A DNA stretch of 64,000 nt from Bugula neritina (lineage: Eukaryota > Bryozoa > Gymnolaemata > Cheilostomatida > Bugulidae), in NCBI GenBank assembly GCA_964035545.1, contig OZ037771.1, positions 7,668,690 through 7,732,689 of the forward strand. The letters are read 5' to 3'. Both the position numbers and the translations under genes were made by a program. This document shows, one piece after another, positions 1-28,275 of this stretch (position 1 is the first letter of the stretch; the number at the start of each line of letters is the position of its first letter). Under the pieces are notes generated by a model. That model was given only the letters and a program-made list of their open reading frames with translations. It did not search any database and was not told the DNA's origin.

Positions 1-3000
1 ATGTGTGAGTTGAGAGAGACTGTAATATACATACAATAAACCATGACTATAATTATACAAGTTACAGGAATATTATATGGCAAATATGCAGTGAATATAA
101 TTTATTATTGCCTTGTAATATAAATTGGGTAAGTTATTTGCATTTAAGAATTATATTTACTTTATTACTAGAGAGTTGGTATGCTGGGACTACTAGTATC
201 AGTCATATTATACTTTATTATATATTTACATAATAGTAGACAATATATAACTAATATATCTCACCTGTCAGGTAATGTATGTAAGTCACAGTTGCGTAGA
301 CGTAACTCTGTAAGTGACTCCATCTTTGGTATCACCTCAGGTAATGTTCCTAACTCATTACCAGACACATCTAATGTGTGTAGATGTGTGAGTTGAGAGA
401 GACTGTAATATACATACAATATACCTCGACTAAAATTATACAAGTTACAGGAATATTATGTTAAACATACTTTGAGGTTATATAAGGTGAAGAACAAAAA
501 TAAGGACTGAGAAAAACACAGCTTTCTGCCTGAGACTTGGAACTTGGAACTATAATGACCCTCCTAGCTGTTCCAAACTTCAAGCTTCTCAGCCACTGCC
601 AATGGGCCATGCAATTTGCAGATGATGTAATGCTGTGCAATGGATAGGCAAAGAGGGTGATAGGTTAGAAGAACAGAGGAAAGAAAATTAGAAGAAGCTG
701 GACTAAAGCTGAGCAGAACCAAGACTGAGTACATGCTACCAGTGAGACTAGATAACAAGGAGAAGAAATACTATGACTGAGATAACTACAGTGCTCTGCC
801 TGAGACTAGTGCTTTCAAATGCCTTGAAACTCTAATAATCAGAATGGTGGGTTGTGGCCTTGAAGTAGCTAGGAGGATTAGAGTGGCTTGGGACAAGTGG
901 AAGGATCTCTCAGAAGTGCTGTGTGATAAGAAGGTATCAACTAAACATACAGTACTTCTGTTTAGAATATCCATTCTGTATGGTAATGAAACCTGGTCAG
1001 TTACTCATGGGATGGAAGAAAGGATGAAGACAGCAGAAATGATACACAATTTCGGGATAACTTACGAGGAGCACATTGAACATGTGATTAGATAACAGGC
1101 TGAGGTGAAACGAATACCTACATACATGAAAAAAAATGTCTGCAGTGGTATTTGCATATTTGCAAAAAAGAAATGATGAGGATATTAACCTCAATTATAA
1201 TGTATAAAAATCAATGGTATATGGAGATATTAAAAATCTGACAAATGGGAACATACTATAAAATATATCAAGAAGTATTGGAGCCTTAAGCAAGAAGAAG
1301 TCCACAGCCGAGTGTAATTGAGCTGGGAGATTGCAGAACGGCTACCTTGCAGGACTATAGTCAGTTAGGTGAGAAAGGTGAAAAGTTGTATTTAATATTA
1401 TACTAATCTCTACAGTTTATGTAAAAGCAGTGAACATGTTATGACTCACCTGTCTGGTAATGTATGTAAGTCACAGTCCATTAGATGTAACTCTGCAAGT
1501 GACTCCATCTTTGGTATCACCTCAGGTAATGTTCCAAACTTATTACCAGACACAACTAATGTGTGTAGATGTGTGAGTTGGGAGAGACTGTAATATACAT
1601 ACAACAAACCATGACTATAATTATACAAGTTACAGAAATATTATATGGCAGATATGCAGTGAATATAAATTATTATTGCCTTGTTAATATGAATTGGGTA
1701 AGTTATTTGCATTTGAGTATTATATTCATTTTATTACTGGAGAGTGAGTATGCTGGGACTACTAGTATCAGTTATATTATACTTTATTATATGTTTACAT
1801 AATGGTAGACAATATATAACTAATATATTTCACCTGTCAGGTAATGTATGTAAGTCACAGCCCATTAGATGTAACTTTGTAAGTGACTCCATCTTTGGTA
1901 TCACCTCAGGTAATGTTCCCAACTTATTATAAGACACATATAATGTGTGTAGATGTGTGAGTTGAGAGAGACTGTAATATACATACAATATACCATGACT
2001 ATAATTATACAAGTTACAGGAACATTATGTTAAACATACTATGAGGTTATATAAGGCAAAGAACATAAATAAGGACTGAGAAAAACACAGCTATCTGCCT
2101 GAAACTTGGAACTATAATGACCCTAGTTGTTCCCAACTTCAAGCTTCTCGAGCCACTGCCAATGGGCCATGCAATTTGCAGATGATGAAATGCTGTGCAA
2201 TGGATAGGCAAATAGAGTGATAGGTTAGAAGAACAGAGAAAAAGAAAATTAGAAGATACTGGACTAAAGCTGAGCAGAACCAAGACTGAGTACATGCTAC
2301 CAGTGAGAATAGATAACAAGGAGAAGAAATACTATGTCTGTACTTCTGTTTAGAATATCCATTCTGCATGGTAATGAAACCTGGTCAGTTACTCATGGGA
2401 TGGAAGACGGGATGAAGACATTAGAAATGAGACACCTAGTTTATGAGGAGCACATTGAACATGACGTGATTAGATAACAGACTGAGGTGAAACGAATATC
2501 TACAGACATGAGAAGAGACCTGCAACAGTATGGACATGTTTGCAGCAAAGAAGATGATATTAGCCTCAACTCCAATGCATAAGAATCAATGGTAAATAGA
2601 GATAAGGAAGAATCAGACTAATGGAAACATACAATATAATCTAACAAGAAATGAGGGTGGTCTAAGCTAAAAAGGTGGGAGGTTTGTTGATGAATTGTAT
2701 CCACTTTACCATTAAAGAGTTGGTATGCTGGAACTACTAGTACCAGTTCTATTCTACTCTATTACATGTTTACATAATAGTAGACTATATATAACTAATA
2801 TATCTCACCTGTCTGGTAATGTATGTAAGTCACAGCCCCATAGACGTAACTTTGTAAGTGACTCCATCTTTGGTATCACCTCAGGTAATGTTCCTAACTT
2901 ATTAAAAGACACATCTAATGTGTGTAGATGTGTGAGTTGAGAGAGACTGTAATATACATACATTAAAAACCATGACTATAGTTATCCAAGTTGTAGAAAT

Positions 3001-11618: not shown

Positions 11619-11762
11619 CTACCACTCTCCATAGAATAAAGGAAACAAGTAAATCTTCCTTCTACCAGTGAGAGTATTTATAACCACAGGAGTCTGTGTC
11701 ACGTAAACAGTTGGATTTCTTTCTCTCCTTTTACCAGATATTTTCCTCACTCTGTGCTTCAC
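11619..11762 (-). CDS. Gene B last exon: end of caspase p10 and stop
   Basis: 47 codons plus TAG. Contains TQTPVVINTLTGRRKIYLF, the typical closing strand of caspase p10 (a Q.P...STL.KKLYF-like ending), then a short tail. It enters in phase 0 after AAAG. A basic segment, RVRKISGKRRER, marks where gene B differs from gene C. Confidence 0.8.
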   Translation of the reverse strand: MKHRVRKISGKRRERNPTVYVTQTPVVINTLTGRRKIYLFPLFYGEW

Positions 11763-14700
11763 CTTTAAATATTTTAAAACTAAATATATGCTGTTGTTTG
11801 CAGACATCAAAATTTTTATTTTTTTAAAATATACTAGATGGAAAACTAGAACAAATGTTATTCAAATAAAATATCAAGAAATTCTGTTCTAACAGAGATA
11901 ATAGAAAGGTATCAAATCTGAAAAAACATAATATAATGTGCAGGAAGCTTATAAAAAGTATTATATATGAAATAGAGAACTCAGTAAAGCTCATTCACTC
12001 TGCATCTTATACTATGACTATATCAAACTGCGACTATACTATACTATTACATGACGATGTTATACTATGACTATACTATACTATGACTATACAATAACAT
12101 GACTATAATATTACACTATGACTATATTATACTATGACTATACTACACTATGACTATAATATACTATGACTATACTATGACTATACTATACTATAACTAT
12201 ATTATTCTATGACTATATTATACTATTGTAGTAATTTGTGCAATTACTGAGCGTGAGTTATTTACTTGCGTATAGTTAGCTGGTTATTCTGCTATCAATT
12301 ACTAGGGTAGCTGTCGAGTACTTATATTTATTATCCACAATAAAGCATAAAACAAACATCACATCAAATTATCCTATACAACAGTCAACTACTAACACAT
12401 GTTACTACTTTAAGCCTCCGCTTACAACAACGTGATATAATGTTAATAACCCGGGAAGTGTCACGTGAATCGGAAGCATATCTTCCGGAGCTGCTAATTG
12501 GTTGCTACATAATGGTCTAAGTATTCCAAAAGTAGGGAGAGGACGATTCCCGTATTTGTACTTTGCACTACTCACTACACCATGACTATACTATACTATG
12601 ACTATACTATACTATGACTATATTGTACTATGACTATATTATACTATGACTATAATATACTATGACTATATTATACTATGGCTACATATTATATTATGAC
12701 TATATTATACTATGACTATACTATAACTAGTCACTACACCTATACTACTGTGACTACACCACACTGACTAATATGAAAACAGCCTCCTCTGAATAGGAAT
12801 TGATGTCACAGGAAGTTACTCACAATATCAAATAAGTCAGCAAGATCACGATGACAGCCATGTCTGTGTAAAGTCCTGACAAGTGTTCTTATCAATAATG
12901 AGCCACCGTAATCAAACTTCATAGAAGCACTGTCTATTAAAATAACACAATGAGTTGAATAGTAAATATTACACAGTGTAAAGTAACAGTGAGTGACACT
13001 ATCCAGTAAAAACTGGTGAGAAATGCTAATTGAAAATTTGAAAATTGGGTTATTTCAGCAACGAAAGGTATATCTTGAGAAAGTCACATGACTGGTGGGT
13101 TTCAAAACTACTTGATGGTGATTGGGAGTTGTGGCCCATGGTTTAGGTGAAAAGGGATTAACCACACAGAATTGTTTGTAACTTAATCGTCTCACTTTAA
13201 ATTAAAAACATTCAGCTAGAGAAAATACTTAGCCGAGTATTTTTAGGCAGCAGAGTATAAACTGTACAGACTAGTGTATCACAGATTACATGAAAACTAG
13301 ATAACTGTAACTCACACACAAATGGTCTATGTACTCAGTTCAGGTTTATGAAAGGTCATGTGATTAGACAGCACACCACAGCTGCTACCTGCTCTTTTTA
13401 TTCTATTTGTTACTAATTTTCAATTGAATAATGGATTTGCGTTTAAAATTTTGGCCGATAACACCCTGAGCAAACTTTATTAATAAAATTATGACAATCC
13501 TAAAATGATGCAAGAAATATTCGTTTCTTTCGGTGGACAAAATTCTTACTTTCAAAGCATGAGTGAAGGATTAGAAGGTCGTCAACATCAAAGTTCCTCT
13601 GTCCAGTTGAAGTCTCAGCTTCCTGTTGATGAGTTTTGAGAGCAGAAAGTTCTGGTGAGGAGGAGTTGGTACTCTGTTGAATATTCTGCTCAGTTTGACT
13701 GACTGAGTTACCTGATTGATTAGTAACACATGTGATATACCAACCAGTATTCTATGTATATGTATGAAGACTAGAGTATCATATAATACAGTATTACAAT
13801 AGTATAATATATTCTTACTCGTATCATATCTACACTCACCAACTCTGCACGCCTGAATAACCACAACTTTAGGCTTGCCGGCCATGTTGGGAAAATTTGT
13901 AGAGTTAATGAGACTGTAGATCTGTGTTAGATAGACTGGCTGTGAGTCAACTCCATGAATCATTCCATTAGCTCCGTGTGCAAACAGAAACAGGAAGAAC
14001 ATACCATAAGTGTTATGAATCTCATCTCTTGTCTCTGATTGAATACACTGGAGTATCTCCTGTATATGAATATAACACAACACACACAATATACAAACTC
14101 AAGCAAGCATATTTGTCACATCTCGTACTAGCCTCTAGGAAGTTAGCTCCGTGAAACAAAAGTTAGCCTAAAAGCGAAGATTCTGCATTTCCCGAACTTG
14201 ATAACTGATTCAATAGACAAGTCTGCAGGCTATTATAACAGTGAAGTGAGACATTAACCACTATTAACTAGTCACACTACGTGATAAGAAAAGGGAGACA
14301 ACTACAAGTAAATAGAAATATACCTCAGCTGTGAGATCCTTCTGCTTCACAACCTCAAATCTCATCTTCCTGAACAGAGCAAATGTGTTGTCAACATCAT
14401 AACTAGAGCCAAGTCTCTGTCCTATATTTCTATACTTGTTGTTGTTTATAATCAGAGCTCTTCCTCTGAATGGACTCGTCATCTTGTATATCTGTAGATA
14501 CAGACTATGTAATTAGTTTAGTACTTATTCATCTCATATTATAAGCAACTGAAGAATAATGAGTTAAAAATCATCCATGAGTAGACTAATATGGTTTCGG
14601 ACATATTGTGTGGCTTTAACACAGGTGCCAGCCTTAACAGTGCTGGGAAAATTGAAAGTACAACCTGGCAGTTTGTTCCATAGATTAGTGACCATCATTC

Positions 14701-17700
14701 ATACTTACCGTACCGTAGGCCGTAACAGCAAATATCAGCCATTTTTACAAATGTCTGAGCTTCCTGTATGGCATTGTGGTACGTTAGGATCAAGCGCTGC
14801 TTGATTCAAAAATGTTGCGGCGGCTTTCTATTGGACAGAAAAACTTTTGCGTCAACGCTCAAGGAGAGCCAAGGCTATACAGAGATAACAGAGAGGAGAG
14901 CCAAGGCTATAGAGAGACAATAGAGAAGAGAGCCAAGGCTATACAGAGATAACAGAAAAGAGAGCCAAGGCTATACAGAGATGACAGAGAGGAGAGCCAA
15001 GGCTATAGAATATTCAACATGACATACAAACCTCTGAAGTGTTGATGAAGAGAGACTTGATACTCTGATTAGTAGTAGGAACTAGTGTCAACTTGGTAAG
15101 ATCTTCTGAAGTGGAGGTAGTACCTTCTTCTTCGTCCGAAACATCACTCAGTACATCATCAGTACCAACAGTATGAGTAGCAGCTCCACTGTGTCCAATA
15201 TTATCTACATGTACAGGAAACATCACATAAACAGCTCACAGAAATGTAATGAAACCAGCAACCTACAGGAACAACTTCAACTGTCAATAACAAACATGGA
15301 GAATCAGAAAGGAAGAAAGTTATTCCTAATCAATTCACTAGAAGTAAGTTTAACTCAAGATACCTGGTGGCTTGTAGTTGGTCTTCACAAAGTCACTCAG
15401 TTTCTGCAGCTCATCTCCAGAAAGCTGAAAAACTGCAATATAAGTATGAATTATGGAGGTTGCTATTACTTGGACAGTACATCGCCATCTAAATATTCTA
15501 TAAATAACCCAACAGAAGACAATCATACTAACTTGGGTGTAAAAGACAAGCTGGGATATCTCTGTATTTTCCACATCTACCAGGTGATGAATCTGAAGTC
15601 ATGGGAAGGGATTCACCATACTTTGGAGGTCGACACCAGGGTGGGTTGATGAACCTCTTTGGTCGCTTTTCTCCAACCAATGGGCAGTGAGCACACAAGT
15701 TGATACAGGTAATTTTACTTGCTCCCCACCATAAGTTGAAGTACTTTACGGTTGAATGAACTGAAGTGGTCAACATCCTCCAAGCATTGCCTATCTGTCG
15801 ACAAGCAGACGTTACGGAGATACTGAGTTTACAAGATTTGTAGTCATGCAGCAACTGCAGGGTGTAAGCTTCGTCTCTCAGCTCCACTCCATTCTTTTTC
15901 ACAGCTTTTTCACTACAATCCTGGATATCATTGAGAAGTTTCACAGAAATCTGGTGGTAAACGTACTGAGGGGGAGTCAGGCCACCAAACAACATGTCTA
16001 CTGACAGCTTTACAGGTTGTCTCCTGGAGGCAGTCAAGTCGGTGAAATACTCCTGTGAGCAGTATGGCATAGTGTAACTTAGTTTCTGGGATGAATCTTT
16101 CATCTCGAATAACAACTGGAAAGATTGCAGCAATGCGACTGCCACCTTCATCTTGTCACTCGTGGTGAAGCTGGTCTCTGCTATCAGAAGATGCTGAAAC
16201 AGCTTCTCACCCATCCCGCCAGTTCGAACAAACTCTTGAGCCAAATTATTAAACTCTGTTTTATTTTCTGTCAACAGAATATCAAGTGAATCCTCTTCAA
16301 TCGCTGACCGTCGATTGCTCCACACTTCCTTCTCGTGAGTGAAGAATACGTGGAGCAGCTTTGTAACCACGGAGATGTCGTAGAATACCAGAGACTGCAA
16401 ACTCTCCCTATCCTGGTACCAAATGAGATGGCCGCTGTTATGCATGTATGACAGAATCACTCTCAGCTGGTCTTCACTTTCCAACTTGCATTCAGTGACA
16501 AGTTGAAGCACTTCTGGAAATGTCTTGTAACTTCCATGGAATGAGTTGAATGTTTGAGCAACTTTTCTCCACAGAGTAGGCACCTTCTTCACGACTAGTT
16601 TACTATCAGATATGATATGACTTCTCAGCTGATCAAACACCTCTTCATATTCATCACCCACAACATATATATCTTGTTCTTGAAACATCTCTTGGCACTG
16701 AAAAAGAAAAACTTGTGCAAAGGAGCTGGAATAATTCTCTTTAGAATTTTCTTCTAGTTGTATCAAATTGAATACACTTTTGGTGTGGAAAAAGAACAGC
16801 CTTTTTAGCTCTTCAAATCCATCTGCACTGTAAGCATCTCGGTGAGTGAAAACCAGTTTGGGTGCTCTGAGCCCGGGATTGGCCAGGTACAGATGTGAGA
16901 GCCAATCAAAATATGTGCATCGAACTGCTTCATTACCATTCACTTCTAAACAGAGCTCTTCAAACTCTTTTAGATTCACAACCACAATAGGAATACAGTT
17001 CTGTTTCAACGTGAACTGGTAGGTAGATTGGTATATTTTATTGCCACCAAAATCTATGAACTGAAGAACATTGTCACCAACCACTAACTTTTCCATATTG
17101 AAGACACGAGTTATTTCATCTTCCACTGCATCAGCCGCTCTATTGGTTAATTTCCTTTTGCCATCTGATCCCACCAGCGTTTTAGTCAGGCTGGTTTTGC
17201 CAGACAGCGATCTACCCACTAGAGCGACCGTAGCTTCAGAAACTTCTACATGACCACCAGAACTAAGATCGTTATAATACTGTCTGATAGCTGGTAGTCC
17301 GTCTACACACACAGCATAAGGTGGAGATGTGAGTGATACACACATGTAGCAGTACAGTTTAGTCAGATTAGGCATGTTGAGAAGTTGAGGAGTTAAAGAT
17401 GTCATCTGAGAGTTGAGTGACAAGTCTAAGACTTGGAGATTCTTGAGTTGACCAACACTACCAAGTAAGTATACAGTATAACTTTAGTATTATTCTATAT
17501 CAAATGTGTTATGTTTAAAAGTAAAACTTGATTGAATACATAATAGTTAGGTATCTAATATAGCCTGAGAGAGAAATAGTGTTTGACAGCACAACTGTTG
17601 CAAATGACTAGAACACAGGCCAAACTGAAAATATACCGATTACTTGACTTAACAGTAAAACTATTACAGTGAAAAAATAGAGTATTGAGTCACAATTTAC

Positions 17701-20700
17701 AAATTGTGTTACATGTAAAAACTTTGGATCTACAATAATACAATTGTAATATATGGAAATTGTATTATTGCAAAACTATTAAAGCCATGCGTAAAAGTTT
17801 TGACACCCTCATACATTTTTGCAGCTTTGAAAAATGGCTAAACAGGATGTTCAATCTCCTAATGTTTCAAACAATTTAAAGTAATGCCATAATGTTACAT
17901 ATGGTATTGTGTGTTGTTTTGTAATCTAACTAAACACATTTAAACAATTTCAAATAGATAAACTATATTTGCTCTTAGAAGTTCCTGATATGAAGTAAAT
18001 TTTCCTGTGTTGTTTACCCATTTAGGTTAATTTTTGCCTTCATACCATTGTACATTCAAGGCAAAATAGTGTATTGTGAATGAATATTTACAAAGTTTCA
18101 ATCTGGGAACAAACATTGCGCAACTTAAAATGAAACTGTATTACAGACTGAGTAAGCAGCAATGACATAATATACCTCACAATTCTACTATTTTCTAAAC
18201 TCAAACTTCACTTCATTATGATGAGTGGTGGAAGACAAAATTTTAGTAGACAGCAGTCATCAAACTAAGAAGTGTAATGTTTTGAATGTTAACTGCATGC
18301 ATTAGAGTTGTTTGTTATTACTGCATGAATCAGATGATTTTTGGCAACTGTATGATGTCATATTCTGCATGTATATAACATGAAGATTTACAAATAAATA
18401 GTTAGTTTTAGCTCTCAACGAAGTGTAGTCTCTACAGCATAAATATAATAACTGCAACTTAACACAACATAAAAAGAAGTACTAAAAGAAAGAAGTAATT
18501 AGGTTTGGTTTTGCAGCATTACAGAAAACTGGGGAGTGAGTTTTGGAATGTTATGACATTGGTGATTTCATACTTATAATTGGCTCATGAAAATTACTAC
18601 TCTATGGCAAGAACTGGTGAAATAAAAATTTCTGAAAGATAAATTCATGCTGCCAGCTTTGTGGAGATTATGCAGAAAAAAGCAACTTTAGAGAAAGTAT
18701 AAAAAATTTACTTTCTACCATACTTTCCTAGTAAAAGAGAGGAAGTTCAAGTACTTCAGTGGCCCATGCAAAAGTTAAAATAGATTTATAGACAATACAA
18801 AGAAAAGTAGCTGAGATAAAACCAACTGACATGGTCCATTTAGCTAGAACTGTCATCAATGCATGGTACAGGATGTGAGATAAACTACAAAATCAGCTGT
18901 GCTAGTGGAGAATATGTCAGCCTACTGCCTAGCAGTCATTGGTGCTAATAGTTACTCACTCACACTGAAACACTGACATGTTATGTGCAAGAATCTTTTC
19001 ACACACAGAAGACATCCCATTCTACAATCTTCTTCATTTTGCTAACCAAATAAAGAGAAAATTTCAATTCACGCATAATTATGTTTTAGTGCAAAATTTG
19101 ATGGTAAAGGGCTTTTTAGCACTTTTCTATCAATAATCTCGTGTTATACAGTTGAAAATTATCTAGAGTTGTAGCTCAGCCAATCAGTTCCATTATATAC
19201 ATATTCAAATATTTTTAGCATGTAAAATTTCAGAAATTGCAAATAAAGATGTAAACTTGTAAACAATTTGGGGGTGTCAAAACTTTTACTCGTGACTGTA
19301 TAATATATTGCAAGCTGCAATCAGATTTATTCAAACTTAGTAATCTCTATAGTTTATATAAAATAGATGATCATATATGATATCTTATATGTTTACATAA
19401 TAGTAAAACATATATAACTAATATAACTCACCTGTCTGATAATGTATGTAAGTGACAGTCCTCTAGACTTAACTGTGTAAGTGACTCCATCTTTGGTATC
19501 ACCTCAGGTAATGTTCCTAACTTATTACCAGACACAACTAATGTGTGTAGATGTGTGAGTTGGGAGAGACTGTAATATACATACAATATACCATGACTAT
19601 AATTATACAAGTTACAGGAATATTATATGGTAGATATGCGGTGACTCTAAATTATTATTGCCTTGCAGGTAAGAATTGTGTCAGTTATCTCTGTTTTAGT
19701 ATTATATCCACTTCATCACTAGAGAGTAGGTATGCTGGGACTTCTAGTATCACTTCTATTATACTTTATTATATGTTTACATAATAGTAGAACATATATA
19801 ACTAATATAACTCACCTGTCTGGTAATATATGTAAGTCACAGTACTGTAGAAATATCTCTGTAAGTGACTCCATCTTTGGTATTACCTCAGGTAATGTTC
19901 CTAACTTATTCTCAGACACATCTAATGTGTGTAGATGTGTGAGTTGGGAGAGACTGTAATATACATACAATATACCATGACTATAATTATACAAGTGACA
20001 GGTATCTTATATGATAGATATGCAGTGAGTCTCAATTATTATTGCTTTGTAACTTGTAAGTATGAATTGGGTAAGTTATTAGCATTTGAGTATTATATTC
20101 ACTTTATCACTAGAGAGTGGGTATGCTGGGACTACTAGTATTAATTTTATTCTACTTTATTATATATGTTTACATAATAGTAGACTATATATAACTAATA
20201 TAACTCACCTGTCAGGTAATGTGTGTAAGTAACAGTACTGTAGACGTAACTCTGTAAGTGACTCCATCTTTGGTATCATCTCAGGTAATGTTCCTAACTT
20301 ATTATAGGACACATTTAATGTGTGTAGATGTGTGAGTTGGGAGAGACTGTAATATACATACAATATACCATGACTATAATTATACAAGTTACAGGAATAT
20401 TATGTCAAACATGTTATGAGCTTTTATTATTTCTGCTCTGCAAGTATGAATTGTTTATAGTCTGGCAGAAAAACACCAATTTTTGACTTAGGTTCGCACC
20501 CCCGGATAAAGTTTTTTTCTCTCCTGATTATTCAAATATAGGGTCTAGGTAAATGTTTCCAGGTGGGTGTGGACTTCTTACCCTTGAGCATTTTGAGAAA
20601 TTCAAGATGGCCGCCAGGCACCAAATGATTTTTTCTAATTCAAATGTACCTACCCATTGGGGCTAAATTTAAGGTTCCAATGCTTTGAAATCTTTAGAAA

Positions 20701-23700
20701 TTAATATAATAAAGATGCATGTGCCTTTATCATATGCATTATTGAGTAATAGGCAAATGATACCCAAGGGTAACTAAGCTAAGCCTTAATCATTCATTTT
20801 TTCAAGTTTAACCTAGCCTTGCCGTGTTTATAATTTCCTTTTATCTCTGCATCAGTTTGTTCTAACTTCATAAAAGTTTACTATATGGTGTGATTTTATA
20901 TGCTGATTACAAGTATGTCCACCAAATAAAGCTGAAAGGAGTTCTGCAAACTTAAAATGCAACGTCATTGCCATATGAGTTGAATAGCAATTTATTTCCA
21001 ACTGGCATGCCTATCGAAAAGATTTGTTGAGCTGCCAACTTAATAGTTATTTTCAGTTTTAAAACTTTAGCTATGTTTTTTAAAGTTATAAAAAGGGGTC
21101 AAAAATTTTAATAACACAGCACCAAGGCTTCTTAACATAATTTAATTGCTTTATTATTGACACATCATTTATCTAAATATTGACATTTTTGCTTTCGAAA
21201 ACTATTTCTACAATCAGCCCATTTGACTTTTCCTCTAAAAGCATTTGCAACAGTTTTTTATAAATGAAAATGTATTTCATGCTGAGGGAAGTAATACATC
21301 TATTAGAACAGTGGTTCCCTACCTTTTTCATACCAATCCCCTTTCATTAACGTTTACTATTAATTTCTCCCCTTTTAATGACCTATGTTGGGTGCACTGG
21401 AACACTAATAGCTGAAAGTGGTTTGGTAGAAGTAGTTAATTCTACTTTTGGTTGTTTCTCCAAAATGCTAAATAGAAAAAGTTTCTCCAGAATGTACAAG
21501 GTTTGAGAATATTGGTGGGAGAACTGTTAAAGCTAGTCTTGATGAAAGTGTAATCACTAGCATGAAGGAGCTTGAAAAGATGTTGATTAAGATTGCAGAG
21601 AGCTCAAGAACAGCAAAACTGTGGGCCATGTGCTTTATTGGACCAATTTTTACCATCAACACCCACATCATATCTGTTAGAAAATGAGACTGGGCCTTAT
21701 ACCTAGCAATAGAAGAGGAAATGCACTATCTGCATAGCGTGGAGGTCATGCCACAAGATGTAAGGATTGAATTCGCGGCTGGTAACCACGCAATGCATCA
21801 TAAACGCGGCCAGCTCGACGGCATCTGGTCAGACATGACCATTGAGGTGACCTTTGTGAGATTTGGTCACAGCAAGGGGGAATCATTGGCATCACCACTA
21901 AATTTGAAACTCTCAAGGTGTGGGTGTACAGCACTTCTGCATGCAACAAAATATAGTATGGCCTCAGTGACATCAGGGATGAGTCTGAAATAAATGCTTT
22001 CACTACTCATAAGGATGAGATGCAATCAAGAATCCAATCTGATTCAAAGGACAGGGAGTCTGTCAAACGGAAGATTGAACTCTGCAGTGACCCACTAAAA
22101 GAATGATGCCACCCAGTTGCTCTTGTCAATATTGAAGCAGATAAGTGCAACTGAGATGAGGATGCTTAAAAAAATTTACAATATGAATTGGGAAGACCAT
22201 GTAACAAATGATAATATAAAGGAGGAGGCCAAAATAGAAGCTATCGCAATACACATGAGGAGAAGACCTCTTCAATAGTATGGACATGTGCGCAGAAGAG
22301 ATATGGAGGAAGATATTATAATGGTGGCTGAGATGAAGATACAGAGAAAGAGAAAGGGAGAGGGGGGAGGGGGCAAAAAAGGTTAACGGATACAGTGAAG
22401 GATGGCATACTGAAATGTGGCTTCTCAGATGAAGATGTTGACAATAGAATCAGATGACACTCTCTGATAGCACTTGGTGCCCTGCAAAACCGCTACTCAT
22501 CTTGGACAACGGCGTACTGGATGAGAAAGTCTGAGACAAAGCCCTATGATGAACAATTTGCTGCCTTCCCATGGTCTCTCAGGGGCAACAATGTAGAATA
22601 TTGGAAAGGGAGTCCAGTCATACTAAATGTCTTGGTAGAAGGAAAATGTGATTTGGTGACACTAGTGCTTTTTTCAGGATTACTATTCATACAAGCTACC
22701 AAGTTTATGCTATGTTGCTACAATTATGCAAAGTGCTCCTCCATGACATCTACAAGACAAAAGACTTGGGAAACCAAGGTCAGCAATGCTATTTGCGATG
22801 TGCCTTTAACTTATGTACTTTGCCTCCTACAGATGAAGCTATTGGACAATGTCACCAGAGCACACCTCCAGGTAGCCATATGAAACTGCGGCATTAAGCC
22901 CACTAGAACATTGGTAAGTGATAGGGAATCTAATAGAATCTCTTTTCCCAAAAGGATTATGAAATGATGTTGTGCTTACACCAGACAGTATTATGAAGTA
23001 GATCATGTTAGTTAATTTGGTGTACACTCGACGGCTCTAGCTTTTGGCGATTTTTTACAGTTTAGCTGCTATTGTATACAGATTTTTGCCTCAAACTATC
23101 AAAATTTTAACAAATAAAACTGAATAATTAAGGTTTTTCCAATTATGCATGATTTTCTATGTCTATTCCTAATTTATTATTACATTGAGATATTATATAG
23201 GCCGTGATGATTCACAAATTTATATTCAGCTCGTATGACAATGACGCCGCGCTTAAATGTTGCAGGACCTCTTCCCAGTCATTTTGTTATGCATAGATAG
23301 AATCAGCAAATTCTATTACCCCATATAGTAAGTTTCATGAATTTTGAGCAAACTTTAAAATGTTTGATCATAATCTGCTGATGTGTACTAAATAAAGTAA
23401 AATGGCCCAAATTCATTAAATGCTCCTGTGGAAGCCAACAATCATGTTAAACAACAAGATATGGCTATTCTAGTACATCTATCCCATGCACAGAGTTCTG
23501 CCCTTGTGAAGCAGTAACAGGAGTGTGCTGCAATGAACTAACATTTCTAACAAATACTAATGTTAAAAAAAAATGAAAAAGGTGTTTAATATGAACATGA
23601 GTGAAAGTTTGTCGCATTTGTACGATTATATATACGTTCAATTTTAACTTTAGCTGAGCAATATGTTGCATCTGTATCTTTTTTTCACTTTTTATTTCCT

Positions 23701-26700
23701 GGCAATAAGTAATGTTTTTTTTCTATATCTGCCCAGTGCCCAAACAGTCATTCAAAAACCTTGTATCATTTCTCTGCACCATATGTGATGTTTTATTGAA
23801 GCAATTCCGATTTTTGAGCTGAAAAACATGTCTCTTAGCTCTTTACTTTGATTTCTTTTTTACTGGCATTGCACATATTCATTCTAAAAATGCACATCTA
23901 TTTTAATCATCAAAAAAATTTTGTTTTTGCAACATAATATAGACTTTATGCCGACTAGATTACGATTTTTTCATAATTGGCGGCCATCTTGGATTTCTCG
24001 AAATGCTCAAGGGTGGCAGGTCCACACCCACCTGGAAACATCTACCTGGACCCTCAAGATAAATAATCAAAAGAGAAAAAAACTTTATCCGAGATTGCGA
24101 ACCTAACCCCCAGTTCTGCCAGACTATTAAGTTATTAGTGCTTATGAATTCAATTTAAAACTGGAGAGTTGGTATGCTGAGATTACTAGTATCAGTTTTA
24201 TTATACTTTATTATATGTTTACATAATAGTAGAACATATATAACTAAGATATCTCACATGTCTGGTAATGTATGTAAGTGACAGTCCTCTAGACTTAACT
24301 CTGTAAGTGACTCCATCTTTGGTATCACCTCAGGTAATGTTTCTAACTTATTCTCAGAAACATCTAATGTGTGTAGATGTGTGAGTTGGGAGAGACTGTA
24401 ATATATATACGATATACCATGACTATAATTATACAAGTTACAGGAATGGTATACGGCAGATATGCAGTGAATATAAATTATTATTGCCTTGTAAGTATGA
24501 ATTGGGTACATTATTTGCATTTGAGTATTATATCCACTATATTATTAGAGAGTTGGTATGCTGGGACTACTAGTAATAATTTTATCATACTTTATTATAT
24601 GTTTACATAATAGTAGAACATATATAACTAATATAACTCACCTGTCAGGTAATGTGTGTAAGTAACAGTACTGTAAATGTAACTCTGTAAGTGACTCCAT
24701 CTTTGGTATCACCTCAGGTAATGTTCCTAACATATTATAAGACACATCTAATGTGTGTAGATGTGTGAGTTGAGAGAGACTGTAATATACATACAATATA
24801 CCATGACCATAAATATACAAGTTACAGCAATGGTATGCAGTGGGTTTATAACATTATAGCTTTTCAAGTATGAGATGTGGAACTTATTTTTGTTTTTGTT
24901 CAATTTATTACTGTAAAGTTGGTATGCTGGGACTACCAGTTTCAGTTATATTATACTTTATTATATGTTTACATTATAGTAGATTATATATAACTAATAT
25001 GTCTCACCTGTCTGGTAATGTATGTAAGTCACATTCCCGTAGATTTAACTCTGTAAGTGACTCCATCTTTGGTATCACCTCAGGTAATGTTCCTAACTTA
25101 CTAAAAGACACATCTAATGTGTGTAAATGTGTGAGTTGGGAGAGACTGTAATATACATACAATATACCATGACTATAATTATACAAGTTACAGAAATATT
25201 ACGTTAAACATACTTTGAGGTTATATAAGGTGAAGAACAAAAACAAGGACCAAGAAAAACACAGCTAACTGCCTGAGACTTGGAACTTGGAACTAGAATG
25301 ACCCTCCTAGCTGTTCCAAACTTCAAGCTTCTCGGCCACTGCCAATGGGCCATGCAATTTGCAGATGATGTAATGCTGTGCAATGGATAGGCAAATAGAG
25401 TGATAGGTTAGAAGAACAGAGAAAAGAAAATTAGAAGATGCTGGACTAAAGCTGGGCAGAATCAAGACCGAGTACATGCTACCAGTGAGAATAGATAACA
25501 AGGAGAAGAAGAAATACTATGACTGAGATAACTACAGTGCTCTGCCTGAGACTAGTGCTTTCAAATGTCTTGCAACTATAATAATCAGAATGGTGGGTTG
25601 TGGCACTGAAGTAGCTAGGAGGATTGGAGTGACTTGGGACAAGTGGAAGGATCTCTCAGAAGTGCTGTGCGATAAGAAGGTATCAACTAAACATACAGTA
25701 CTTCTGTTTAGAATATCCATTCTGTATGGTAATGAAACCTGGTCAGTTACTCATGGGATGGAAGACGGGATGAAGACAGTAGAAATGATACACAATTTTG
25801 GGATAACTTACGAGGAGTTGATGAATTGTATCCACCATATTACTGGAGAGTTGGTATGCTGGGACTACTAGTATCAGTTCTATTCTACTCTATTATATAT
25901 GTACATAGAATTAGAACACAGAGGGAATGTAGTATACTTACATACAAAATTAGCAATTAGACCAAAGTAAATATGGGAAGAAAGTGCTTTTTAAGAGATT
26001 AGATGATTCAGTGTAACAAATTGCTAAATCAAAAGAAGTTGTAACAATTTTCCTGTAAAGAGAATGTTGAAGATGGGTTTTGCTCTGCATGGCCCGACTT
26101 TGCTGCCAAGGTACCCACCTGAGAATTACTGAATACAGAAGGAGAGTAAAAAAGTTGGACAAAAAAAGTAGATAAATCTCTGTAGCTTCAATTCACTTAA
26201 ACTTGACTCTGATGCAAGTAAATTATGATGCAGTATAAAACTGGCCATAGGTGTGATAGTAGCTGTAAGGCAGGCAATAACAGGTAGGCCTAACTACAAC
26301 TACTTTGAGATAATGAGAATAAAGTGTTCACATCCCTGGACTAAGTATAAAGTGATTATAAAAGCTGGAGATACAATTGAGATAATGCTGATAGGTAGGA
26401 AGGGAGATCTTATGTCAGAGTGACTCTAGATTATTACTCATATGCATATATAAACTATAGCTGTGTTCAGAACACATTAAATATAGTTGATTGTTTTACT
26501 CCATATTTCATTACATCTAAAAATATAGAATTTTATCTAACAATTTCAACAACTTGAACAACTTCTAAAGTACCGACAATACACTGAAAGAAACGAAGAC
26601 AAAACTAATAGCAGTGAATACTTTGAAGAATATGAAACAAACTTAAGGCTACAAGCTCTGCAAGTAATATTATATTTGATTTGTGATTTCCTTAATGAAT

Positions 26701-28275
26701 ATTTAGCTATCCATTTCTCTATTGGCAGAATAAATATTAAAGGTTATCCCCACATGCAGGTAATCAGCTATGATGTGTGAGTCACCAGAAGTCATTGTTG
26801 ACCTCTTCCCCAGCAGCTTCAGCTCAAACTAATATAACTCTATTTAAGTACAATAGTGGAAAAAATTCCATACTTTTAAATTCAATTCTTTATGGGTCTT
26901 TATGATTTTCTTTTCAGGGGTTTGATTGAACATAATTTAGTTTGCACTTTTTCTCATCAAGCACACAGACTTTTCCACAATTCCACTCTTACTGCACTCA
27001 CTTTTATAATGCATGTCAAACAGAATGATTACTCAGGTGCAGTAGAGGTATGAAGGAATATTGCTGACATGCCATACAAGTATAACTCACTAACCATTTC
27101 AATATTCCAGTAAATAGTCAGTGAGTTACAACTGAAATACTGACAGCTAATTACACAGCTCAAGCATATATTATTATCCAAAGAGAATTCATGTTCTAGA
27201 TAGAGGGATTGTGACCTTTAACATGTTGATAACAAAGTGATGATAGACCTACTATTCTAAACTGTTGATACTGGTTAGCCGTTGAATACACAAGGTAGTT
27301 ACAAGTGGAGCAAACTCTGTAACAGCAGGTGGCAGATCTCCCTCTATCTTTAGGTCAGTGATCACATGACCTGAACAGAGCTTCTTTATTTCCTCCTTTG
27401 TATAGAATTTTGTAGATTTGGAGGACAACTCTCTTTTGTTAATAGGATCCATACCAGAGTGCCTCCACCAACACCTGTATTTCTTTGCTAAAAACAAATG
27501 TTCTATTTTTAGTATATATGTACCCAATTATAGAGTAAATATAATATCACCTGGTTTATAGTACATTTATATATGTTAATATTCTAATAGTATAAATTAC
27601 ATCATTTTACTGTTGAATTACTTATATAATAATTGAAAATATAAACCAGCAGTAAACATATTCCTATATTCAAAGAGACAAACATACTAATTGTTGAGGC
27701 ATCAGCATGAAGATTAATAGGAATAAAAATGATACTTATTCAACTTTTTATATCAGGTAGACTGAGAACAAATGAGAAACTTATCTGATAGACAATGCTG
27801 ATGTTTTTATAAAGTTTGACACCCACTTTACGACAGAAAATGTTGATATAAAAGAAAATATTAGAAAGTATAAGGAATAGTGAGAATGAGAAGTAACCTA
27901 GGTTCTCATGTAACCCAGAAGTTTCTCAACAGCTTTAATTGTCAAGTTGACAGCTTCATTAAACAACCCTTAGATGGAAAGTTACAGAAAGTCTGCTTCA
28001 TTAAGCTACATGCAGATAAAAGTCACAGAAAGTGTACAGAAACACCAAAGTATAAATATAGTTCAGAGAAGAAACTTAAAGGGGGATAACAAAGTCTTTA
28101 TTTTAACTTTCAAGTTGGAAGATGTAATTGAAACCTATTCAGGTATATTTAAAGAATACTGTATTCAGGTGTGTATTTTACCATTCTCCAGACCAACTAA
28201 TATTGTATACGGACCTGTTTGTGAGGTTGCTGCTGTTACTTCATCCTCAGAACTGGTTACAGAGTTGGTAGCCAT
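11619..28275 (-). CDS. Gene B: complete LRR-Roc-COR-caspase protein (1359 aa)
   Basis: Exons in transcript order: 28182-28275, 27253-27487, six LRR cassettes (25008-25145, 24642-24779, 24258-24395, 20209-20346, 19816-19953, 19432-19569), 15581-17457 (last LRRs, Roc, COR), 15364-15432, 15032-15204, 14324-14491, 13840-14059, 13550-13711, 12824-12933, 11619-11762. Their lengths sum to 4080 bp, divisible by three, and every junction agrees in phase. Domain order is N-terminal region, 12 cassette LRRs plus cap, Roc GTPase with P-loop GRSLSGKTS and THRD, COR, acidic linker, then caspase with FAHG and QACR. The likely role is an intracellular sensor whose GTPase switch controls a built-in caspase. 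This is inferred from the domains; ROCO proteins and caspases are known families, but I do not know this fusion. No transmembrane segment or signal peptide is seen. Confidence 0.85.
12005..12226. repeat. Minisatellite, about 16-bp unit (first part)
   Basis: Tandem array of units like TATGACTATATTATAC in the last-but-one intron of gene B. It is split by an LTR insertion (12227-12579) and resumes at 12581. A much larger array occupies the same intron of gene C. Confidence 0.85.
12227..12579 (-). mobile_element. Solo LTR, 353 bp, inside the minisatellite
   Basis: Bounded by TG and CA. On the minus strand it reads TGTAGTGAGTAG to AAATTACTACA and contains AATAAA-like poly(A) signals. It resembles the sequences at 60640-60906 and, more distantly, 30437-30764. 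No internal coding region follows and no clear target duplication is seen, so the solo-LTR call rests on ends and family resemblance. Confidence 0.55.
12581..12733. repeat. Minisatellite, second part
   Basis: Continuation of the 16-bp array beyond the solo LTR, ending at a CTAGTCACTACACC motif also found at the end of the gene C array. Confidence 0.8.
12824..12933 (-). CDS. Gene B caspase p10 exon (substrate-pocket helix)
   Basis: 110 bp, phase 1 to phase 0. Codes SASMKFDYGGSLLIRTL, followed by an LHRHGCHRDLADLF helix, the classical GSWFI.-type segment of p10. Aligned with animal caspases, the S1-pocket arginine of the SWR motif is Lys here (SMK), while gene C has Arg (SMR). Confidence 0.8.
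13550..13711 (-). CDS. Gene B caspase p20/p10 linker and first p10 strand
   Basis: 162 bp, phase 1 to phase 1. A Ser/Thr/Gln-rich linker of about 40 residues (candidate maturation region) leads into NFDVDDLLILHSCFE, the first p10 strand. An Asp cluster (FDVDD) could be an autocleavage site; this is inference. Confidence 0.75.
13840..14059 (-). CDS. Gene B caspase p20 exon 2, catalytic His and Cys
   Basis: 220 bp, phase 0 to phase 1. Catalytic His in LFAHGANG (codon 13976-13978) and catalytic Cys in IQACRVG (codon 13847-13849). The spacing, HG.DSQP segment and QACR are those of peptidase family C14A, not of metacaspases. Confidence 0.85.
14324..14491 (-). CDS. Gene B caspase p20 exon 1
   Basis: 168 bp, phase 0 at both ends. 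Contains RGRALIINNNKY, then QRLGSSYDVDN, whose Arg aligns with the p20 arginine of the caspase S1 pocket, then a helix and KQKDLTAE. Together these are the standard opening of a caspase p20. Confidence 0.85.
14692..14861. mobile_element. Truncated foldback MITE in a gene B intron
   Basis: Matches the left half of the 307-bp element at 43902-44208 in the same intron of gene C. The right terminal inverted repeat is missing, replaced directly by the 32-bp tandem repeats. Confidence 0.6.
14865..15010. repeat. 32-bp tandem repeat, about 4.5 units
   Basis: Units contain GAGCCAAGGCTATACAGAGA. The same intron of gene C has about ten units (44341-44680), so this locus changes in length. Confidence 0.85.
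15032..15204 (-). CDS. Gene B acidic linker exon between COR and caspase
   Basis: 173 bp, phase 1 to phase 0. Codes a Ser/Thr/Asp/Glu-rich segment with DVSDEEEG, probably disordered. Acceptor CATGTAG|AT; donor GAG|GTTTGT, a weak but conserved site. It likely tethers the caspase to the Roc-COR core. Confidence 0.7.
15364..15432 (-). CDS. Gene B 69-bp exon after COR
   Basis: Phase 1 at both ends. Codes FQLSGDELQKLSDFVKTNY, a predicted amphipathic helix. Bounded by TTGCAG and a GTATCT donor. Conserved at 45037-45105 in gene C. Confidence 0.7.
15581..17457 (-). CDS. Gene B Roc-COR exon
   Basis: Single 1877-bp exon. It opens with a phase-2 LRR (QLKNLQVLDLSLN) and an LRR cap. The Roc GTPase follows: P-loop GRSLSGKTS (about 17190-17216), switch II DFGG in place of the usual DxxG, and G4 motif THRD. 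A COR domain of some 250 residues follows (HLIWYQDRESLQSLVFYD), then a conserved Cys/His-containing tail (NLCAHCPLVGEKRPKRF). Roc-COR is the GTPase and dimerisation module of ROCO proteins such as LRRK2. The donor is CCTG|GTAGAT; reading past it reaches a stop at 15528, so splicing is needed to reach the caspase. Confidence 0.85.
17780..19300 (+). mobile_element. Degenerate Tc1/mariner element in a gene B intron
   Basis: Terminal inverted repeats share GTAAAAGTTTTGACACCC (17790 region and, inverted, 19270 region), next to TA dinucleotides. Plus-strand remnants near 18800 resemble the C-terminal end of Tc1 transposase (RVAEIKPTDMV-like in the gene C copy). Frames are broken. Also present in gene C (47457-48580), so the insertion predates duplication. 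Confidence 0.65.
19432..19569 (-). CDS. Gene B LRR cassette exon 6
   Basis: 138 bp, phase 2. Variable segments read LVVSGNKL and LSLEDCHL. The last Pro of the motif is replaced by Ser (LHTLSD). Confidence 0.8.
19816..19953 (-). CDS. Gene B LRR cassette exon 5
   Basis: 138 bp, phase 2. Variable segments read LDVSENKL and IFLQYCDL. Spaced 384 bp from exon 6. Confidence 0.8.
20209..20346 (-). CDS. Gene B LRR cassette exon 4
   Basis: 138 bp, phase 2. Variable segments read LNVSYNKL and LRLQYCYL. The large transposon at 20458 lies just upstream in transcript order. Confidence 0.8.
21450..22110 (+). pseudogene. Decayed coding region of unknown family inside the transposon
   Basis: Pieces in different frames give a continuous protein-like signal: AESSRTAKLWAMCFIGP near 21590, WALYLAIEEEMHYL near 21690, GQLDGIWSDMTIE near 21810, then in another frame FETLKVWVYSTSACNK near 21905. 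Stops and frameshifts break it. It looks like a conserved repeat-borne protein, but I cannot name it. Confidence 0.4.
22140..22400 (+). mobile_element. RTE-type LINE 3' fragment
   Basis: Reads EMRMLKKIYNMNWEDHV and, after a stop, YGHVRRRDMEED. These are hallmarks of the C-terminus of RTE-clade LINE proteins. Nested in the large transposon. Confidence 0.55.
24258..24395 (-). CDS. Gene B LRR cassette exon 3
   Basis: 138 bp, phase 2. Variable segments read LDVSENKL and LSLEDCHL. The last exon base before the donor is T instead of the G seen in every other cassette, so the 5' splice site is weakened and the junction codon becomes Ile instead of Ser. Confidence 0.75.
24642..24779 (-). CDS. Gene B LRR cassette exon 2
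   Basis: 138 bp, phase 2. Variable segments read LDVSYNML and LHLQYCYL. Confidence 0.8.
25008..25145 (-). CDS. Gene B LRR cassette exon 1
   Basis: 138 bp, phase 2. Variable segments read LDVSFSKL and LNLRECDL. Spaced 366 bp from exon 2. Confidence 0.8.
25296..25830 (+). mobile_element. RTE-type LINE fragment in a gene B intron
   Basis: Closest to 545-1240 and 56270-57010: FADDV, then RIGVTWDKW and LYGNETWSV with stops. It lies next to an LRR cassette as in the other copies. Confidence 0.6.
27253..27487 (-). CDS. Gene B exon 2: N-terminal region leading into the LRRs
   Basis: 235 bp as in genes A and C. Acceptor TTTTTAG|CA. The donor is GTAGGT, weaker than the GTAAGT of genes A and C. An AG that could act as an earlier acceptor in gene A (ATTAG) is ATTGG here and in gene C, which supports the downstream acceptor in all three. 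Confidence 0.75.
28182..28275 (-). CDS. Gene B exon 1 (start codon exon)
   Basis: 94 bp with ATG at 28273-28275 in the context AACAAGATGG. Ends G|GTAAAA in phase 1, as in the paralogs. Confidence 0.75.

Follow-up and report, generated by a model that had tools for sequence, protein, structure and literature searches.

Does a single gene of Bugula neritina encode LRRs, a Roc-COR GTPase and a caspase in one chain, or do two neighbouring genes share the locus? Animal cell-death alarms are usually divided among receptor, adaptor and caspase. In the stretch of 64,000 nucleotides analysed here (hereafter the window), a first-pass annotation had nevertheless joined 16 exons with matching phases and no stop into one gene, in a host that it implied to be an early metazoan; B. 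neritina is a bryozoan, not an early-branching metazoan. We reproduced the exon model exactly: it yields 1364 aa, its introns are bounded by GT and AG, the phases are compatible and the spliced model of the window copy contains no internal stop codon. The observation of an LRR/Roc-COR/caspase fusion model is thus confirmed, and its first interpretation is partly supported. The features are as follows.

28215..28275, minus strand: exon 1, presumed start codon at 28275-28273, GT donor present
27253..27487, minus strand: exon 2, N-terminal module (KYRCWWRH...), aligning from model residue 20 with the N-terminal part of Watersipora P0026
25008..25145, minus strand: exon 3, two LRRs, 138 bp, phase 2-2 (exon model)
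24642..24779, minus strand: exon 4, two LRRs, 138 bp (exon model)
24258..24395, minus strand: exon 5, two LRRs, 138 bp (exon model)
20209..20346, minus strand: exon 6, two LRRs, 138 bp (exon model)
19816..19953, minus strand: exon 7, two LRRs, 138 bp (exon model)
19432..19569, minus strand: exon 8, two LRRs, 138 bp (exon model)
15533..17457, minus strand: exon 9, last LRR, Roc GTPase and COR, 3′ end a phase-1 GT donor (profile and fold match)
15364..15432, minus strand: exon 10, linker (exon model and paralogues)
15032..15204, minus strand: exon 11, acidic linker, LSDVSDEEE in the window copy (exon model and paralogues)
14324..14491, minus strand: exon 12, N-terminal part of caspase p20 (IYKM..RGRALIINN), phase 0-0 (exon model, structure alignment)
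13840..14059, minus strand: exon 13, caspase p20, catalytic His 13978-13976 and Cys 13849-13847 (QACR) (exon model, structure alignment)
13550..13711, minus strand: exon 14, intersubunit linker and start of p10 (exon model, structure alignment)
12824..12933, minus strand: exon 15, caspase p10 (exon model, structure alignment)
11619..11762, minus strand: exon 16, end of p10 (RKIYLFPLF) and stop (exon model, Watersipora P0026 alignment)
45201..47153, minus strand: Roc-COR exon frame of the next tandem paralogue, L024 (ROCO locus list)
42734..42970, minus strand: caspase p20 match of the next tandem paralogue (converted from C7:7711423-7711659)
265..402, minus strand: LRR exon, by order probably of the preceding tandem paralogue, L022, whose Roc exon lies beyond the window

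Searches of the whole window with Rfam (gathering scores) and for tRNAs gave no matches.

In the spliced protein the domains follow in the order LRRs, Roc-COR, acidic linker and complete caspase. Profile searches, proposed with the model as a check, agreed with it: exon 9 matched the Roc profile with 29.4 bits (cut-off 27) and the spliced protein matched PF00656 with 134 bits over profile positions 1-227 of 233. The Roc motifs GRSLSGKTS (P-loop), DFGG and THRD are carried by exon 9, at positions invariant or nearly so across 35 aligned sequences. COR directly adjoins Roc on its C-terminal side, and Roc-COR showed a fold match to CtRoco/LRRK2 (VIA-align). Alignment with caspase-4 covered both p20 and p10, and the top rows among solved structures (best 60 of 180 matches) were CED-3 and caspase-4, -11 and -3. 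No NACHT or NB-ARC match was obtained with Pfam up to E 0.1 in the spliced protein. AlphaFold, run on the caspase part of P0006 (a second B. neritina prediction) with 4 sequences as input, reached a mean pLDDT of only 35, and this poor model was not used.

The catalytic residues of exon 13 stand in the contexts AHG (His) and QACR (Cys), in line with the HG and QACxG of C14A caspases. Both were kept in 26/26 places with a complete exon 13, window excluded, a count that leaves out L001, L002, L006, L015 and L016 (no Roc exon beside them) as well as L045 and L049 (truncated), takes L017 and L059 as one place and includes L020, which has no known Roc neighbour. The caspase S1 pocket for a P1 Asp is basic and consists of a p20 Arg, a p20 Gln and a p10 Arg. 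The p20 RxG and Gln are retained in the window copy; the position of the p10 Arg is occupied by Lys in the window copy and by Lys, Arg or Leu in paralogues. The caspase part is of C14A type with p20, p10 and catalytic residues, and is a candidate protease.

We then considered the COR-caspase junction. Conserved COR sequence stops at a phase-1 GT donor in 28/30 loci; the matches of the other two, L037 and L039, stop short of this position, and these loci were left out of the scoring. A linker exon follows COR in 29/30 loci, with only part of it matched in L050; L046 is the exception. In the chromosome-7 and C1:348-363 kb copies, which make up 11 of the 28 scored loci, an in-frame stop comes shortly after the donor; in the other scored loci the reading frame continues past the donor for differing lengths. 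Exons 9-14 kept their AG/GT sites in 8/8 chromosome-7 paralogues, with length changes only in multiples of 3; in two of eight close paralogues the Roc exon is interrupted by an in-frame stop. Against two 65-66%-identical paralogues (L030 and L031, on which we rely), dN/dS was 0.16/0.18 for Roc-COR, 0.22/0.31 for the linker and 0.22/0.23 for the caspase, at a dS of 1.1-1.8 that is close to saturation. Among close paralogues, linker values ran from 0.10 to 1.22 on few changes; for L024-L028 the caspase comparison is without genomic cover of exon 15 and/or 16, and spurious short alignments may have entered it. That the linker is constrained at the protein level is supported. The possibility that the window copy is a pseudogene was rejected, given the lack of an internal stop and the constraint relative to the distant paralogue pair.

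An alignment search for the window protein (24 proteins, 8000 candidates scored) returned Bugula P0001 and P0006, Watersipora P0026 and P0032, unnamed Roc-COR open frames and distant ROCO proteins. P0026 of Watersipora subatra, a bryozoan of another genus, is a relative that carries the name MFHAS1-like; it aligns end to end with the window model, caspase included (451/1396 identical), while P0032 (648 aa) ends within COR, without caspase. P0001 and P0006 join COR to caspase and come from a B. neritina draft annotated by AUGUSTUS with transcriptome hints. P0001 lacks exon 12, so that in this annotation COR runs into a p20 that is incomplete; with the linker-caspase part as protein query, it was the only match among 2997 candidates. 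A named fused ROCO-caspase of another animal phylum was not found among the 8000 candidates scored, a search of limited reach.

At least 94 Roc-COR exons were counted in the genome of B. neritina; most lie in clusters, some have in-frame stops and not all are intact. At least 80 of the 94 have a same-strand caspase (C14) match within 8 kb downstream, and 14 have none, among the matches listed (150 of 176); a p20 exon is nevertheless present in two of these 14, L040 and L043. Chance neighbourhood of Roc-COR and caspase was rejected: for the first 68 exons, a downstream caspase was observed in 61, versus a mean of 2.92 at shifted positions. A 2363-aa open frame at L041 was rejected as a giant frame, since it consists largely of a stretch of N. 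Taken together, the window gene is probably a real member of a large bryozoan ‘ROCO-caspase’ family of one-piece sensor-caspase proteins.

Exons 3-8 each encode two LRRs in 138 bp with phase 2-2, which makes them skippable. In 40 distinct LRR exons (53 sequences collected, 13 duplicates removed), pN/pS was 4.41 at 8 concave positions versus 0.28 at the other 37, by a simple count method rather than a codon-model likelihood test and with the 8 positions, placed by the LxxLxLxx register, set after the alignment was viewed. Diversifying change of the concave LRR face is supported.

Could the locus instead hold two genes that were duplicated jointly, one for LRR-Roc-COR with its end behind exon 9 and one for the caspase alone? 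The stops behind the COR donor in 11 loci, the Met of IYKM as a potential start codon in the p20 exon and the caspase-less P0032 would fit such an arrangement, which the first-pass annotation had set against its own model with a Roc-COR gene ending at 15528. That Met, however, belongs to the Y-x-M...RG motif usual in caspases. Since COR ends at the phase-1 donor, a linker exon follows and the Watersipora protein aligns end to end, separate genes are very improbable; the varying frame beyond the donor, the constrained linker and the B. neritina predictions that join COR to caspase also stand against them. The annotated union of LRRs, Roc-COR and complete caspase in one protein holds on the same donor, linker and P0026 evidence. 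More room is left for alternative splicing, with the full protein made beside shorter forms, by retention of intron 9 or skipping of exon 12, that would act as decoys or regulators: we consider this possible, at rather less than even chances. A stop just behind the donor means that intron retention would yield a caspase-less form; exon 12 is of phase 0-0 and absent from P0001, although P0001 may be a mere prediction error; the LRR exons are skippable, and those of brown-algal ROCO genes are described as alternatively spliced (PMC11378527).

A fusion that is expressed with its caspase as pseudo-enzyme or scaffold would be compatible with the variable p10 S1-pocket position (K/R/L) and the Roc-exon stops of two close copies, but seems quite unlikely in view of the His and Cys kept in all 26 places and the low caspase dN/dS against the distant pair. 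Only slightly less unlikely are regulators of cell death in development or tissue remodelling rather than immune or allorecognition receptors. Caspases do act in development as well; against this, clustered Roc-COR exons in such number, exchangeable LRR exons and a diversifying ligand face are typical of a recognition repertoire. In the best reading, the one-piece sensor-caspases would serve defence and/or allorecognition.

NLR inflammasomes combine LRR sensor, nucleotide switch and caspase output, and the likeness of the bryozoan protein to these NACHT/NB-ARC-LRR systems is one of working only: it has a Roc-COR GTPase in place of a STAND ATPase, the caspase in the same chain and no NACHT/CARD match. 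An alternative to NLR inflammasomes, as the annotation put it, is a plausible inference. Like MFHAS1 and other animal LRR-Roc-COR ROCO proteins, the protein is an LRR-Roc-COR without kinase; we know of no protease domain in proteins of the MFHAS1 type. The annotation knew of no described ROCO-caspase. For animals this stands, as no account was found in open PMC papers (subscription papers and preprints lying outside this scope); for bacteria it does not, as a caspase is mentioned in effector position of LRR-(AP-GTPase/Roc)-COR proteins (Kaur et al. 2021, PMC8195603). According to the same source, the bacterial proteins carry effector domains of at least 24 kinds, occur as several paralogues in one genome and have rapidly evolving LRRs. 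The order LRR-Roc-COR-effector is common to both; the bacterial effector varies between proteins, whereas in the bryozoan it is a caspase of animal type, made up of p20 and p10. In 80 C-terminal pieces (≤450 aa) of bacterial and archaeal ROCO proteins, PF00656 matched 0/80 at E 0.001; TIR_2 was found in 16/80, CHAT in 3/80 and C25 in 1/80.

Among eukaryotes, Trichoplax ROCO proteins with CARD, death or TIR domains and Aplysia TIR-ROCO proteins (PMC4104024, PMC9334734) similarly join an animal ROCO to death or immune domains, but these are adaptor domains, whereas the bryozoan ROCO bears the protease itself; the passages on them in these papers do not mention a ROCO-caspase. Humans have 4 ROCO genes and vertebrates few copies (PMC11378527). 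Brown algae, as described there, have an expanded family of 9-47 simple LRR-ROC-COR genes with one LRR per 72-bp phase-2 exon and positive selection at concave sites. Phase-2 modular LRR exons, concave-site selection and family expansion are shared with the bryozoan; two-LRR exons of 138 bp, the attached caspase and the larger set of Roc-COR exons are not.

How would such a protein work? Behind its N-terminal module and modular LRR run come the Roc GTPase and the COR dimerisation domain, and a linker rich in Asp and Glu leads on to the C14A-type caspase. The protein would be located in the cytosol. The LRRs may bind a variable microbial or allogeneic ligand, freeing Roc-COR from an autoinhibited state; rearranged or clustered Roc-COR would draw the caspase domains together and activate them by proximity. 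The activated caspases may cleave the Asp-rich linker, releasing the protease, and could trigger cell death or inflammation with no need of CARD/DED adaptors. Coupling of a GTPase-driven dimer switch to the caspase is proposed; for a bacterial LRRK2 homologue, the title of a 2024 paper reportedly speaks of GTP-driven monomerization and activation.

Tentatively, and with the balance tipping slightly the other way, we suggest that cheilostomes replaced or supplemented the NLR-adaptor-caspase chain with about a hundred one-piece sensor-switch-caspases, varied by exchange of two-LRR exons and letting single cells sense pathogens or non-kin tissue and die directly, LRR-Roc-COR-caspase having arisen independently in animals and bacteria. 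If true, this family, fusing LRR sensor, Roc-COR switch and caspase, would be a compact alternative to split alarms. Roc-COR is the module mutated in LRRK2 Parkinson's disease, and ROCO-caspases would show how its conformational change can be wired to a second enzyme. They would also provide a colonial invertebrate with a candidate immune or allorecognition repertoire.

The alternative to an LRR-Roc-COR-caspase fusion is two genes, a Roc-COR gene stopping behind exon 9 and a caspase gene of its own, which the first-pass annotation had named as the refuting case; six comparative results speak against it. With the window exon as query, 68 Roc-COR exons were found, and a C14 match lay on the same strand within 8 kb downstream in 61 of them, against a mean of 2.92 at shifted positions; one had a match upstream and none on the opposite strand. 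Two further searches extended the set to 94 exons, 80 of them with a downstream match (median distance 1.4 kb), a lower bound because it is based on 150 of the 176 caspase matches. In all eight chromosome-7 paralogues, the AG/GT sites of exons 9-14 were kept and length differences were multiples of three only (exons 15 and 16 were visible only in the retrieved stretches long enough to include them). COR conservation stopped at a phase-1 GT donor in 28 of 30 loci, identity falling to about 39% (the other two were not scored), and the in-frame stop that follows was not conserved: the 11 closest loci had it immediately after the donor, the other 17 at a greater distance. Of the 30 loci, 29 had a same-strand linker exon downstream, marked by an acidic Ser-Asp motif (partial in one locus). 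Against two 65-66%-identical paralogues, at dS values of 1.1 to 1.8, near saturation, dN/dS was 0.22 and 0.31 for the linker, 0.16 and 0.18 for Roc-COR and 0.22 and 0.23 for the caspase, and these substitution ratios indicate that the linker exon is under protein-level constraint. Among close paralogues the linker ratio scattered from 0.10 to 1.22, with few changes behind each value.

Predicted proteins that join COR to caspase also argue against two genes. The closest named protein to the window gene, B. neritina EB796_002463 (P0001), is a Roc-COR-caspase without the 168-bp phase 0-0 exon 12 that, in the public prediction, ends early in p10; the missing exon reflects either real exon skipping or an annotation error. 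Another B. neritina prediction, P0006, carries the COR-B end, the linker and exons 12 to 14. For the published draft, genes were predicted with AUGUSTUS guided by transcriptome hints (PMC7576161). From another bryozoan genus, the 1386-aa Watersipora subatra protein P0026 (MFHAS1-like at NCBI) is a full-length relative: its alignment with the spliced window protein runs from the N-terminal module through the final strand of the caspase (451/1396 identical), and it matched PF00656 at 8.3e-38. Domain search found no caspase in P0032, a second Watersipora protein, which ends inside COR and may be a partial sequence. The observation of a fusion was confirmed, and the fusion is well supported by co-occurrence, splice phases, the linker, P0001 and P0006, and P0026.

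All 26 places besides the window in which exon 13 is complete keep the catalytic His and Cys. Of the residues expected in the S1 pocket, the window copy has the p20 Arg-x-Gly and Gln. At the p10 position of this pocket (exon 15, 12933-12824), where caspase-4 has Arg, the window copy carries Lys, close paralogues carry Lys or Arg and a chromosome-1 pair carries Leu, the protease being otherwise conserved; substrate choice may be unusual.

The 94 Roc-COR exons, a count of exons, some with stops, and not of genes, are distributed over contigs C1 (37), C6 (33), C7 (10), C5 (7), C8 (4), C3 (2) and C4 (1), and their coordinates place them mostly in clusters. The window gene belongs to a six-copy array on chromosome 7 (7.585-7.716 Mb), with three further copies at 5.064-5.108 Mb. 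Brown algae are reported to carry 9 to 47 ROCO genes, more than other species (2024 survey, PMC11378527). Two of eight close paralogues have one in-frame stop each in the Roc exon (TGA in L022, TAA in L028), exons 9-14 being otherwise kept; both are probable pseudogenes or assembly errors, and such stops fit a birth-and-death family, as expected. Further caspase matches were seen at C1:3.61-3.64 Mb and C8:4.82-4.90 Mb. Those at 4.82 and 4.887 Mb on C8 lie downstream of Roc-COR exons; several at 3.6 Mb on C1 had no neighbour in the first Roc-COR exon list and are probably ordinary caspase genes.

Other elements in the window were as follows.

~17785-19290: terminal-inverted-repeat-transposon-like sequence with similar ends in opposite orientation, AAAGTTTTGACACCC / GGGTGTCAAAACTTT (by eye)
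33427-34004: minisatellite, 16 bp, 36 copies
34712-40119, plus strand: Ty3/gypsy-like retroelement; gag-like and pol-like frames overlap, and by eye include protease, reverse transcriptase, RNase H and integrase
44342-44680: minisatellite, 32 bp, about 11 copies
48737-52386, plus strand: two frames resembling ORF1 and ORF2 (endonuclease and reverse transcriptase) of a LINE-type element (by eye)

The inverted ends lie in the intron that separates exon 8 from the Roc exon. The Ty3/gypsy-like stretch is GC-rich (0.51-0.58) and sits between two tandem ROCO-caspase genes, and the LINE-like frames are upstream of the next paralogue's Roc-COR exon. The 32-bp minisatellite is inside the intron preceding the p20 exon of that paralogue; a shorter similar run was seen by eye in the window gene at about 14860-15000.

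Among 53 chromosome-7 LRR exon sequences collected, 40 were distinct, with sites 14, 34, 36 and 37 the most variable. At the eight concave positions pN/pS was 4.41 and at the remaining 37 it was 0.28, by a count method on paralogues rather than a codon-model test and with concave positions set after alignment inspection. In brown algae, ROCO genes are described whose LRRs lie on phase-2 exons and whose concave sites are under positive selection, similar to the pattern seen here; the algal exons are 72 bp long, and alternative splicing is described for them (PMC11378527).

The first-pass annotation had known of no described ROCO-caspase, which stands for animals, no account having been found in open full-text literature, but not for bacteria. 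Kaur et al. (2021; PMC8195603) report bacterial proteins in which rapidly evolving LRRs and an AP-GTPase of the Roc class are followed by COR and a C-terminal effector; caspase is one of the effectors that they list. The domain order therefore has bacterial precedent. Among the best 80 of 542 confirmed bacterial and archaeal ROCO proteins, a scan of the C-terminal pieces found PF00656 in none at E 0.001, CHAT in 3, C25 in 1 and TIR_2 in 16. Animal ROCO proteins are reported with CARD, death and TIR domains in Trichoplax (PMC4104024) and with TIR in Aplysia (PMC9334734). The bryozoan genes pair the ROCO architecture with an effector that is an animal caspase, in a repertoire that is large, exon-modular and diversifying. 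Its host had been taken for an early-branching animal; Bugula neritina is a cheilostome bryozoan, a lophotrochozoan.

Domain content, recurrence, constraint and sensor diversity of the ROCO-caspases are supported, and the earlier interpretation as a whole partly so. The protein would be a cytosolic receptor, inactive until its LRR face meets a variable ligand. Binding would shift the oligomeric or domain arrangement of Roc-COR, letting caspase domains meet and become activated by proximity; the Asp-rich linker could be a self-cleavage site. A study of a bacterial LRRK2 homologue has GTP-driven monomerization and activation in its title, so a simple GTP-dimer-caspase chain is not to be assumed. 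The output would be cell death or inflammation with no need of a CARD or DED adaptor. An immune use is plausible, and in an animal that lives in colonies an allogeneic ligand is equally possible.
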